DNA from: Phycisphaeraceae bacterium
GTDB lineage: Bacteria > Planctomycetota > Phycisphaerae > Phycisphaerales > UBA1924
NCBI GenBank assembly: GCA_019636655.1
Contig: JAHBXB010000002.1
Span: 260,537-324,536 of the forward strand
DNA length: 64,000 bases
Direction of reading: 5' to 3'
In this document: piece after piece, positions 39,528 through 45,121 of the stretch
How positions within the stretch are numbered: the stretch's first letter is position 1
How the letters are laid out: each line of letters starts with the position of its first letter
Made by a program: the position numbers and the translations under genes
The notes under the pieces: model-generated
The model's input: only the letters and a program-made list of their open reading frames with translations
Database searches by the model: none
What the model was told of the DNA's origin: nothing

Positions 39528-39567
39528 GAAACAGGGCCCGGGAACCGCTCCCGGGCCCTGTTTCTTT
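39528..39567 (+). terminator. Intrinsic terminator
   Basis: A perfect 16-bp stem, arms 39528-39543 and 39549-39564 (GAAACAGGGCCCGGGA), with a 5-nt loop. The stem itself closes with a short T-rich end, and TTTG follows. Confidence 0.85.
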
Positions 39568-39607: not shown

Positions 39608-40114
39608 TTGGCCCGGCCCCTGTTCCACATCGTGCTGCACGAGCCCGAGATCCCCAACAACACCGGGAACATCGGGCGGACATGCGTCGCGACGGGGTGC
39701 GCCCTCCACCTGATCCACCCGCTGGGGTTCTCCACTTCTGAAAAGGCATGCCGGCGAGCCGGGCTTGACTACTGGCCGCGTCTGAGCCCGAGCGAGCATG
39801 CGGGGTGGGAGGAGTTCTGCCGCGACCAGGCCCCCGCGAACCTCTGGCTGCTCACGACCAAGTCGGCCCGCCCGGCATGGGAGGTGCCCCTGCGGCCGGG
39901 CGACTACCTCGTCTTTGGCAAAGAGTCGAAGGGACTGCCCGACGAGTTGCTGGCGGCTCACCCCGACCGACTGATCACGCTGCCGATGGTCGCCGAGGAG
40001 CGGTCCCTCAACCTTGCGACCGCAGTCTGCGCGGTCGTGTACGAGGGTGTGCGGCAGCGTGTCGCTTCCGGCGACCTCTCGCTCGACGCGACCGGACGAT
40101 TGCGGGACGCCTGA
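39608..40114 (+). CDS. trmL: tRNA (cytidine/uridine-34-2'-O)-methyltransferase TrmL
   Basis: A 168-residue single-domain SPOUT enzyme that methylates the ribose of the wobble base of tRNA-Leu. 'IVLHEPEIPNNTGNIGRTCVATG' at the N-terminus, 'LVFGKESKGLP' and the SAM-knot motif 'LPMVAEERSLNLATAVCAVVYE' match TrmL closely. Length is normal. TTG start, predicted leaderless, right after the terminator of the thioredoxin-like gene. Confidence 0.9.
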   Translation: MARPLFHIVLHEPEIPNNTGNIGRTCVATGCALHLIHPLGFSTSEKACRRAGLDYWPRLSPSEHAGWEEFCRDQAPANLWLLTTKSARPAWEVPLRPGDYLVFGKESKGLPDELLAAHPDRLITLPMVAEERSLNLATAVCAVVYEGVRQRVASGDLSLDATGRLRDA

Positions 40115-41569: not shown

Positions 41570-42571
41570 GTGCAACCAAAGAAGCCAGGTGACATGGTTG
41601 AGGGCTTCCGGGTGATGTCGGAGTTGGGGCGCGGCGCCGCCTCGCTCATCTACCTTGTCCTGGACCCGAAGACCAAGCAAGTCTGGGCGATCAAGCACGT
41701 CGCCAAGGAAACCCCCAAGGACCAGCGGTTCCTGGACCAGGCGGAGGCGGAGTACCAGATCGCCTCCCAGCTTGACCATCCCCGGATCCGAAAGATCGCC
41801 CGGATCATCAAGAAGAAGGACTCGATCGTTTCCCTCTCCGCCTCGGAGTTGTACCTGGTGATGGAGATGGTCGACGGGGCGAGCCTGGAGCGGAAGACAC
41901 CCCGGACCTTCGAGGAAGCCGCGGAGATCTTCGAGCAGGTCGCCGAGGCGATGGCCCACATGCACACCCGCGGCTTTGTCCATGCGGACATGAAGCCGAA
42001 CAACATCATCGTGGATGCCGAGGGGCACGCGAAGATCATCGACCTGGGCCAGTCGTGCAAGATCGGCACGGTCAAGGAACGGATACAGGGTACCCCCGAC
42101 TACATCGCTCCCGAGCAGGTGCACCGACGTGCCCTCAATGACAGGACCGATGTGTACAACCTCGGGGCCACGATGTACTGGGTGCTGACGCGCAAGTTCG
42201 TGCCGACGGCCCTGGCCAAGGGCGACTCGCTCGTCGGCTCGCTGGATGACCACCTGATCGAGCGGCCCAAGCGAACGATCGAGCTCAACCCACGGGTGCC
42301 CGAGTTGTTCGACCGGCTGATCATGGAGTGCGTCGAGGTCGAGCAGTCCAAGCGGCCGGACATGCCCTCGGTGGCTCAGCGGCTCAACCTCATCCGCGGC
42401 AAACTTGTGGCCGAGGGGGAACTGCGCAAGAGCGGCGTGCTCCCCAAGATCGAGGATCCGGCGGTCCGATCTGACAGCGACGACCGCGAGGCGGCGGACA
42501 ACGGACGCCCGGCGTCGACACGGCGCGATGCGGGCGATGGCGAGCCCAAACCGTCGCATCCCCGGGTGTGA
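41570..42571 (+). CDS. Hanks-type Ser/Thr protein kinase
   Basis: A 333-residue soluble kinase. Gly-rich loop 'LGRGAASLIYLV', ATP Lys in 'WAIKHV', catalytic loop 'FVHADMKPNNII' (HRD written HAD), metal motif 'IIDLG' (DLG for DFG), activation segment ending 'GTPDYIAPEQV', and 'DRTDVYNLGATMYWVLT' are all present over residues 13-280. The catalytic Asp and Lys are intact, so it should be active; the missing Arg of HRD suggests it does not need activation-loop phosphorylation. The last 50 residues are charged and probably disordered. No membrane or sensor domain. GTG start; stop overlaps the next gene by 4 bp. Confidence 0.85.
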   Translation: MQPKKPGDMVEGFRVMSELGRGAASLIYLVLDPKTKQVWAIKHVAKETPKDQRFLDQAEAEYQIASQLDHPRIRKIARIIKKKDSIVSLSASELYLVMEMVDGASLERKTPRTFEEAAEIFEQVAEAMAHMHTRGFVHADMKPNNIIVDAEGHAKIIDLGQSCKIGTVKERIQGTPDYIAPEQVHRRALNDRTDVYNLGATMYWVLTRKFVPTALAKGDSLVGSLDDHLIERPKRTIELNPRVPELFDRLIMECVEVEQSKRPDMPSVAQRLNLIRGKLVAEGELRKSGVLPKIEDPAVRSDSDDREAADNGRPASTRRDAGDGEPKPSHPRV

Positions 42572-43470
42572 TCCCGCTCTTCACCCAGCTTGACCTGACC
42601 AGCGCCGACGAGGTGACCCGCGTGCTGCTCGCCGCGGCCGAGGCCAACCGGACCGCGGCATGTCGAACCGGCTCGATCGACGTCATTCACGGACCTGGCA
42701 GGCTGGTGGCAACAGGGGACCTGCACGACAACCCGCTGCACCTTGCCAGGCTTGTGTCCGCGGCGGGGCTCGGCGGAACGACCGAGCGCCCGCCGTCGCA
42801 CCTCACGCTGCACGAGATCATCCACTCGGACCGGCTGGTGAACGGGATGGACTTCTCGTACCGGGCGCTGACTCGCGTCGCCGCGCTGAAGTCCGCGCAC
42901 CCGGAACATGTCCACACGCTGCTGGCCAACCACGAACTGTCGCAGGTGCTCGGCTCGGGGATTGTCAAGGACGGCGTACGGGTGGTCGAGGCATTCAGCG
43001 AGGCGGTCGATCAGGCGTTCGGGGAGCAGGCGGGGGTTGTGCACCAGGCGATCCGCGCGTTCATTCGCTCGATGCCGCTGGCCCTGCGGTGCGAGACCGG
43101 CGACGGTGCAATCCTGTGCGCCCACAGCCTTCCGGGGCCGGAGGTCATGGATCGGTTTGACGCTGGGGTGCTGTCGCGAGACCTCGTTGACGCGGATTTC
43201 GTACCGCGTCGGGGTTCGGCCCACCTGATGATCTGGGGCCGCGGCCACAAGGCCGAGCAGCTTCGATCCCTTGGCGAGCAGTGGAATGTCGGGCTGTTCG
43301 TGCTTGGTCACGAGAAGGCTGACTCGGGCTGGGCGGCGATCGAGCCCAACGCGGTGGTTCTGAACTCGGATCACGAACAAGGCGTGTATCTAGAACTCGA
43401 TCTGGCCGGCATTCCGGCGCTGGCATCTGTCGCCGGGTCTATCCACCCTCTATCCTCAACCACTATCTAG
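42568..43470 (+). CDS. Calcineurin-like metallophosphoesterase
   Basis: A 300-residue phosphoesterase. Metal-binding motifs: 'LVATGDLHDNPLHL' (GDxHDN), 'HTLLANHELSQ' (NHE), His in 'LCAHSLPGPEVM' and 'FVLGHEKADSGW' (GHE). This is the PPP-like order D-H, GDxxD, GNH(E/D), H, GH. It starts with GTG in the GTGA overlap with the kinase stop, so both are made together. A role as the phosphatase that reverses the kinase is inference; it might instead act on a nucleotide. Confidence 0.78.
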   Translation: MIPLFTQLDLTSADEVTRVLLAAAEANRTAACRTGSIDVIHGPGRLVATGDLHDNPLHLARLVSAAGLGGTTERPPSHLTLHEIIHSDRLVNGMDFSYRALTRVAALKSAHPEHVHTLLANHELSQVLGSGIVKDGVRVVEAFSEAVDQAFGEQAGVVHQAIRAFIRSMPLALRCETGDGAILCAHSLPGPEVMDRFDAGVLSRDLVDADFVPRRGSAHLMIWGRGHKAEQLRSLGEQWNVGLFVLGHEKADSGWAAIEPNAVVLNSDHEQGVYLELDLAGIPALASVAGSIHPLSSTTI

Positions 43471-43510
43471 TTGTTCTTATTCTATACGGATATTTGGCGA
43501 GTGATTCTGG

Positions 43511-43558
43511 CCACGAAGTCCGAATGGATACCTAAAGTTCGCTCGTCGTGGATTTTTT
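43511..43558 (+). terminator. Weak terminator after the phosphoesterase gene
   Basis: CCACGA (43511-43516) pairs with TCGTGG (43546-43551) around a large loop, followed by ATTTTTT. Confidence 0.4.
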
Positions 43559-43589
43559 CTGTATTTTGCGTCACGCTATCGCTGTGACT

Positions 43590-43749
43590 CAGGCCTATTG
43601 AGATGGCCGGCGGTCCAGACGTCGCCGTGGCGGGTTCAACCCGCCCTGATCGGTCGACCGCGTCGTCGACCTATCAGGCCGCTTTGAGTCCACGAGATTG
43701 GAGTATCTCTCGCGAGACCCCCGCCATGGCGCGGGGGCCTCGCGTTTTT
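43590..43749 (+). ncRNA. Candidate structured small RNA with intrinsic terminator
   Basis: A run of hairpins without coding frame: CGGCG/CGCCG (43608-43612/43623-43627), GGCGGG-ttcaa-CCCGCC (43629-43645), a 13-bp hairpin CCTGAT.GGTCGAC/GTCGACC.ATCAGG (43645-43678, one mismatch), GAGAT-tggagt-ATCTC (43694-43709), then a terminator with CGCGAG/CTCGCG plus 7 more pairs and TTTTT (43711-43749). It does not show the signature sequences of tmRNA, RNase P RNA, 6S or SRP RNA that I could recognise. It could be a free sRNA or an attenuator upstream of glyA; glyA seems to have a separate promoter. Confidence 0.5.
43711..43749 (+). terminator. Strong intrinsic terminator of the candidate RNA
   Basis: Stem CGCGAG-a-CCCCCGC / GCGGGGG-c-CTCGCG with a 6-nt loop, directly followed by TTTTT. 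Confidence 0.85.
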
Positions 43750-43799
43750 GGGTGTTGAGGATCGTTCAGGCGTGATCTCTCCGCGGTGAGGGGGCTGTT

Positions 43800-43805
43800 T
43801 ATGAT
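43800..43805 (+). promoter_or_regulatory. -10 box TATGAT, leaderless start of glyA
   Basis: TATGAT-CGTGC-ATG (43811): a five-base gap after the terminator at 43749. Confidence 0.6.
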
Positions 43806-43810
43806 CGTGC

Positions 43811-45121
43811 ATGAGTCACAGCACCATCGCGAATGACCTCTTGAGCCTCTTGAGCACGTGCGATCCAGAGATCGGCTCGCTTCTCTCGAAGGAACGGGAC
43901 CGGCAGGAACACACGCTCGAACTCATCGCCTCGGAGAATCACGTCTCCGCGGCCGTGATGCACACGATGGGGTCGTGGCTGACTAACAAGTACGCAGAGG
44001 GGTACCCCGGAGCCCGGTACTACGGCGGCTGCGAGTTCCACGACGAGATCGAGACGATCGCCCGGGACCGGGCCAAGCAGCTCTTCGGGTGCCGGTTCGC
44101 GAACGTGCAGCCGCACTCGGGGGCGCAGGCGAACATGGCCGCGTTCATGGCGACAATGCAGCCGGGGGACACCTTCGCGTCTCTGGTGCTCAAGGACGGC
44201 GGGCACCTTTCCCACGGGATGAAGATCAACTTCTCCGGCACATTCTTCAAGCCGGTGCACTACCCCCTCCACTACGACAAGGCCCACCCCGAGCATGAGC
44301 GGATCGACTACGACGCGCTCCGGAGTGTCTGCCTGGAGCACAGGCCCAGGGCGATCCTGTGCGGCTATTCGGCGTATCCGCGGGTGATCGACTTTGCACG
44401 GTTCCGGCAGGTGGCCGACGAAGTCGGGGCGTTGCTGGTCGCTGACATCGCGCACATCGCGGGGCTGGTCGCCGCGGGTGTGCACCCGAGCCCGTTCCCG
44501 CATGCACACGTGGTGACCACGACCACGCACAAGACGCTCCGCGGCCCCCGGGGCGGGCTCATCATGACCGACGACGAGGAGCTGGCCAAGAAGATCGACA
44601 AGGCGCTCTTTCCCGGAGTCCAGGGCGGGCCGCTGATGCATGTGATTGCGAGCAAGGCTGTCGCGTTCGGCGAGGCCCTGCGGCCGGAGTTCAGGGCGTA
44701 TGCCAAGCAGGTGGTGGCGAACGCGAAGGCGCTCGCCTCAGCGCTGATCAGCCACGGCTACCGGATCACCAGTGGCGGAACCGACAACCACTTGATGCTG
44801 GTCGACCTGCGGGCGAGAAACGAGAACCTGACCGGCTCTGACGCGGAGAAGTGGCTCGAGACCGCCGGGATTGTGTGCAACAAGAACGGCATCCCGGATG
44901 ACCCGCGGCCGCCGCGTGTGACGAGCGGGCTCAGGCTGGGCACGCCGGCGGTTACGACACGGGGCCTGAGGGAAGGGGATCTCAAGCAGGTCGCGAAGTG
45001 GATTGACCAAGTTTTGGGGTCCAACGGAGATGCTGCAACCTGTGCTCAAGTGCGGGGGGAGGTCCGGTCGATGTGCCAGAGGTTCGCGATGCCGGGTTCT
45101 GGGACTGTCGGCGGCCGGTAG
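43811..45121 (+). CDS. glyA: Serine hydroxymethyltransferase
   Basis: A 436-residue PLP enzyme converting serine and tetrahydrofolate to glycine and 5,10-methylene-THF. '[11 protein letters not shown]', '[15 protein letters not shown]', '[19 protein letters not shown]' and the PLP-Lys motif '[15 protein letters not shown]' are all canonical. C-terminal '[17 protein letters not shown]' also matches. The extreme C-terminus is slightly longer than usual. Predicted leaderless. serA, which makes serine, is about 9 kb away; threonine aldolase at 9529 offers another glycine source. Confidence 0.94.

Follow-up and report, generated by a model that had tools for sequence, protein, structure and literature searches.

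The element at positions 43590-43749 of the window, that is, of the whole stretch of 64,000 nucleotides of Phycisphaeraceae DNA analysed here, is probably the folded 3' end of an upstream kinase and phosphoesterase-like transcription unit, which would be closed by tandem terminators and thereby kept apart from a leaderless glyA. The 340-nt spacer that contains the element separates a 300-aa gene from glyA (Table 1). The Ser/Thr protein kinase gene that precedes the 300-aa gene is presumably a member of the same upstream unit. The 300-aa gene had no Pfam match at 0.01, and we take its GDLHDN and ANHE sequences to be motifs of a calcineurin-like phosphoesterase. Homologues of this gene were present in 51 of 61 genomes of the family, its own included. 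They also lie within a few kb of glyA in a number of family genomes, and in two of them (G006 and G060) the protein matches to the upstream gene and to glyA are separated by just 60 and 96 nt. The GC content of 60-nt segments from 43450 to 43599 was 38-48%, as compared to 65% in the surrounding 4 kb, and the spacer contains no open reading frame of at least 60 aa.

Table 1. Coordinates of genes, predicted hairpins and promoter-like sequence around the element in the window
Feature	Position	Strand	Description
Ser/Thr protein kinase gene	41570..42571	+	Pfam Pkinase, 3.3e-45
300-aa gene, phosphoesterase-like motifs	42568..43470	+	listed ORF
AT-rich start of the spacer	43471..43599	+	GC content
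T1, weak terminator-like hairpin	43511..43558	+	14-nt arms, 79% complementary, 11-nt loop, then A and T6
Hairpin 1	43608..43627	+	predicted fold, 6 pairs, 8-nt loop
Hairpin 2	43629..43645	+	predicted fold, palindrome GGCGGGTTCAACCCGCC, 7 pairs, 3-nt loop
Hairpin 3	43646..43677	+	predicted fold, 12 pairs, one C-U mismatch
Further hairpin	43694..43709	+	predicted fold, 5 pairs
T2, predicted intrinsic terminator	43711..43749	+	13 pairs, one A-C mismatch; TTTTT at 43745-43749
-10 box of glyA, TATGAT	43800..43805	+	11 nt ahead of ATG; top -10 score of the spacer
glyA, serine hydroxymethyltransferase	43811..45121	+	Pfam SHMT, 2.5e-160

The preliminary description of this DNA had noted several consecutive stems that end, after about 160 nt, in a strong terminator with T5, and the predicted fold agrees with it; the terminator stem at 43711-43744 corresponds to the longest stem described there, with its 13 pairs and one mismatch. 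The plus strand of the element folded at -81.2 kcal/mol (z -4.92), which was equalled by none of 200 dinucleotide shuffles. The minus strand folded better, at -87.6 kcal/mol (z -6.0), partly because the A-C mismatch of the terminator becomes a G-U pair there and leaves 14 unbroken pairs. Among 798 segments of 160 nt, scanned on both strands with 10 shuffles each, the fold z of the element ranked first on the minus strand and fifth on the plus strand, on a grid that was placed to match the element exactly and so favoured its rank. Much of the fold energy is owed to the terminator hairpin and the remainder is modestly unusual: without this hairpin, positions 43590-43708 gave a z of -2.15 (6 of 200 shuffles as good) and their minus strand -2.42 (1 of 200), and positions 43603-43690 alone gave -2.56 (4 of 200). 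Elsewhere in the window, a perfect 16-nt inverted repeat with a 5-nt spacer was found at 39528-39564 (GAAACAGGGCCCGGGA), and the 160-nt segment around it had a fold z of -5.5 on the plus strand and -4.4 on the minus strand.

T2 was the strongest of 35 T-run sites, counted on either strand of the window wherever at least four T follow one another, with a hairpin of about -27.5 kcal/mol and a z of -3.48; the runner-up was an irregular structure at 39744 (-27.3 kcal/mol). It has the stable GC-rich hairpin and the immediately following T run by which intrinsic terminators are recognised. T1 sits about 40 nt and T2 starts about 240 nt past the stop codon of the upstream gene, and the two are arranged in tandem on one strand. 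At -13.5 kcal/mol, T1 was 13th among the same 35 sites, and it was displaced by other hairpins once the surrounding sequence was folded along with it. The earlier claim that the upstream unit has its own terminator therefore holds as far as the presence of T1 is concerned, but this hairpin is weak and loses to an alternative fold. The downstream regions of the upstream gene were surveyed at 30 loci, of which 29 were from relatives; one of these 29 was represented by 128 nt only. Of the 29 relatives, 9 had a T-run hairpin no weaker than -10 kcal/mol within 300 nt of the stop codon, and 3 had one within 62 nt.

We infer that transcripts of the upstream unit partly read through the weak T1, would continue across the hairpins and would be halted at the very strong T2. 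T2 would in this way insulate glyA, which would be initiated 50 nt further on from its own promoter as a leaderless mRNA. Probably the hairpins ahead of T2 either shield the 3' end or serve no specific purpose. With its GC-rich 13-pair hairpin and T5, preceded on the same strand by a weaker T6 hairpin, the arrangement is similar to tandem intrinsic (Rho-independent) terminators, and it differs from them in the distance of T2 from the stop codon and in the additional hairpins before it. The first rank of T2 and its ordinary form, the tandem of T1 and T2 and the lack of a good -10 sequence between T1 and the RNA argue for the 3'-end reading, as do the conserved -10 box of glyA past T2 and the failure to find a homologue in the genomes searched. 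On the other hand, about 240 nt is far for a simple terminator when T1 is already present at about 40 nt, and neither T1 nor T2 appeared in the output of a generic terminator scan.

The glyA gene was recovered in 59 of 61 genomes of the family, its own included, and the upstream regions were compared in all 59, with start codons picked by script. A TAnnnT box was found 11 to 14 nt ahead of the start in 46 of the 59 genomes, and at -12/-11 in 38, where the background farther upstream was 0.0014 per position. The box TATGAT of this genome is accordingly promoter-like and conserved, in line with the earlier suggestion that the downstream unit has a promoter of its own. No -35 element was apparent by eye in the aligned upstream columns. 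As TATGAT lies 11 nt before the ATG, the glyA mRNA is expected to start at or beside this codon, more than 50 nt past T2, and is predicted to be leaderless. The motifs GGAG, GAGG or AGGA occurred at -18 to -4 in 9 of the 59 genomes. Apparently glyA changes its mode of initiation within this one family: 46 of the 59 genes have the leaderless promoter, and 10 of the remaining 13, counted by eye, carry GGAG, GAGG or AGGA within 20 nt ahead of the start codon, as in a purine-rich leader of Shine-Dalgarno type.

An independent, lineage-specific small RNA gene, as had been proposed at first, is the foremost alternative and is possible, though we consider it distinctly less probable than a 3' end. 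Such an RNA of about 150-260 nt would be initiated at a promoter within the AT-rich block, end at T2, and act by base pairing in trans or by protein binding. The locus does have the look of one, since T1 stands in front and is followed by the AT-rich block, a folded GC-rich body and a strong T5 terminator; the AT-rich block, the folded body and the terminator, like the top fold z of the window on the minus strand, count against the 3'-end reading. A -10 matrix was built from the glyA boxes of 45 of 58 relatives, with the own genome left out, and it scored the glyA box at 9.1. The second score in the spacer was 5.95, for TATTCT at 43478, a moderate -10 from which a longer RNA could possibly start. 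The best score in 43540-43600 was 2.08 (TATTTT at 43562), on a matrix that represents the promoters of one gene and would miss other promoter types. A score of 8.08 was reached on the minus strand by TAGAAT (43484-43479), which is directed away from the element and antisense to the 3' end of the upstream gene. A sigma70-type scan found no promoter in the spacer, and it has little weight because it missed the box of glyA too. The original proposal is thus left with T1 as a weak upstream terminator and with no convincing promoter by the -10 matrix. The element resembles intergenic bacterial small RNAs with intrinsic terminators in that it is intergenic, folded, ended by a terminator and free of long open reading frames; unlike them it has no convincing promoter immediately upstream and no conservation that we could find. 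The z of only -2.15 without the terminator and the absence of an Rfam match also speak against a small RNA gene.

The Rfam search of the whole window gave no family at the gathering cut-off and no tRNA or tmRNA was found, which bears out the earlier statement that no known RNA class could be recognised. At E<=10 there were four weak matches, all far under their cut-offs. The best of them was the Pseudomonas rnk leader (RF01772) at 43626-43749, with 18.9 bits and E 1.8. This family is a terminator-bearing leader and the 3' part of the match falls on the terminator hairpin, but the score is far under the gathering threshold of 55 and the element is not upstream of rnk. A tRNA-like cloverleaf, with a core fold of an outer stem and three arms, was rejected because ARAGORN reported none in the window or in 11 match loci. 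6S RNA is similar in length to the element. In a search whose control gave a match in 5 of 14 known genomes, RF00013 had no match in the element, nor in this genome at E<=0.001, and the element is without the long closing stem with a central bubble that is the architecture of this RNA. The same family gave candidates (L152, L153, L154) in 5 of 20 Phycisphaerales relatives at E<=0.001, one of them above the cut-off. Antisense pairing was considered for hairpin 1, of which 17 nt (43611-43627) could pair without a mismatch with a site shared by two paralogous genes of this genome (L075 and L077), while 23 of 25 nt at 43604-43628 are complementary to a third gene (L072). All target sites are in open frames, with E of 0.007-0.3, and the complementarity was set aside as probably due to chance or codon bias.

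Conservation of the element, for which the preliminary description had suggested looking in related genomes, was not detected in 163 genomes of the family or 400 of the order, collections without a second genome of the genus, and this weighs against a small RNA gene as well. The covariance model was made from a single sequence in two identical rows and run with stricter filters, by which weak matches may be lost, and it found no homologue in the 163 family genomes, which include the own genome and none congeneric. At E<=1 it matched 11 of the 163, its own included, with 201.9 bits for the self match and 31.9 bits for the best other (L092). The non-self loci were 11 in total. Four of them (L092, L093, L094 and L097) end in a hairpin and T run like T2, so T2 is of ordinary form; three (L098-L100) are mutually similar and look like one coding sequence, L095 and L096 are within long open frames, and L101 and L103 were left unclassified. 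A blastn search with the spacer matched 2 of 41 genomes including its own, and the other was a 55-nt match (L002). Over 70 collected loci, the sole non-self blastn matches were the same L002, L036 (39 nt) and L030 (28 nt). In the 400 order genomes, blastn of the 160 nt gave no non-self match longer than 55 nt. With two candidates scored per genome, 56 of the 400 had a match at E<=0.01, own included, as compared to 13 of 400 for the reversed sequence, an imperfect control. The excess is a further point against the 3'-end reading. All 12 of the 12 loci inspected (L113 excluded) were within open frames of at least 153 aa, such frames being common in DNA this GC-rich, and we read the excess as a probable word bias of coding DNA.

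It is quite improbable that the element acts at the level of DNA and not of RNA, as an inverted-repeat site for a protein or as the end of a mobile element. Folding is good on both strands and better on the minus strand, and three separate inverted repeats are present at 43511-43551, 43636-43687 and 43711-43744, with arms of 14, 23 and 14 nt. However, the genome contains a single full copy, with recurring matches of at most 29 nt. Searches of plasmids (3 records) and phages (1 record) at E<=1 gave short weak matches only, and the strict pattern of hairpin 3 had 0 matches in viral contigs. The T5 that follows the last repeat on the plus strand is also at odds with a DNA element.

That the leader of glyA contains a riboswitch or conditional terminator, which would attenuate this gene, is suggested by the location upstream of glyA and by the strong terminator, and we regard it as very unlikely. 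The terminator precedes the promoter, as the conserved -10 box at 43800 comes 50 nt after it and 11 nt before the ATG, so attenuation of glyA, which had been offered as a second possibility, is refuted as far as the sequence can tell. Only 5 of 58 relatives had a T-run hairpin no weaker than -16 kcal/mol within 400 nt upstream of glyA, the best at -19.9 kcal/mol and none reaching -20, as compared to -27.6 kcal/mol in this genome, and there was no Rfam riboswitch match. Because such hairpins are rare and weaker before the glyA of relatives, the structured spacer is not conserved in the glyA neighbourhood. Equally unlikely is a protein of 51 aa: its ATG-started frame at 43603-43758, one of eight open frames of at least 20 aa that overlap the spacer, spans the element and had two non-self matches in relatives (E 3.6e-4 and 5.9e-4), but it crosses T2, belongs to no Pfam family, shows by eye neither a -10 box at leaderless distance nor GGAG, GAGG or AGGA ahead, and gives overall matches near chance (at E<=1, 149 of the 163 genomes including its own).

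Strong terminators are commonplace, as are orphan folded spacers, and the element, read as the 3' end of the upstream unit, is of little importance alone; the analysis counts against a regulation of glyA. No title on small RNAs of planctomycetes or Phycisphaerae, nor on this element, was among the literature matches listed, and noncoding RNAs may be little described in Phycisphaerae. The -10 matrix trained on glyA found 28 sites scoring at least 8 on both strands of the window. In 11 of the 28 (glyA included), an open reading frame of at least 100 aa starts 9-14 nt past the first base of the box, in a count made without a control. Examples of the matrix sites are 18121, 22955, 23762, 33056, 43800 and 56344 on the plus strand and 10605 on the minus strand. 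Judging from such promoter-like boxes, this lineage may often use leaderless mRNAs. A -10 box at a fixed distance of 11-14 nt from the start offers an easy way to find probable leaderless promoters in the present family of Phycisphaerales, and it would help to separate real leaders and small RNA genes from plain spacers.
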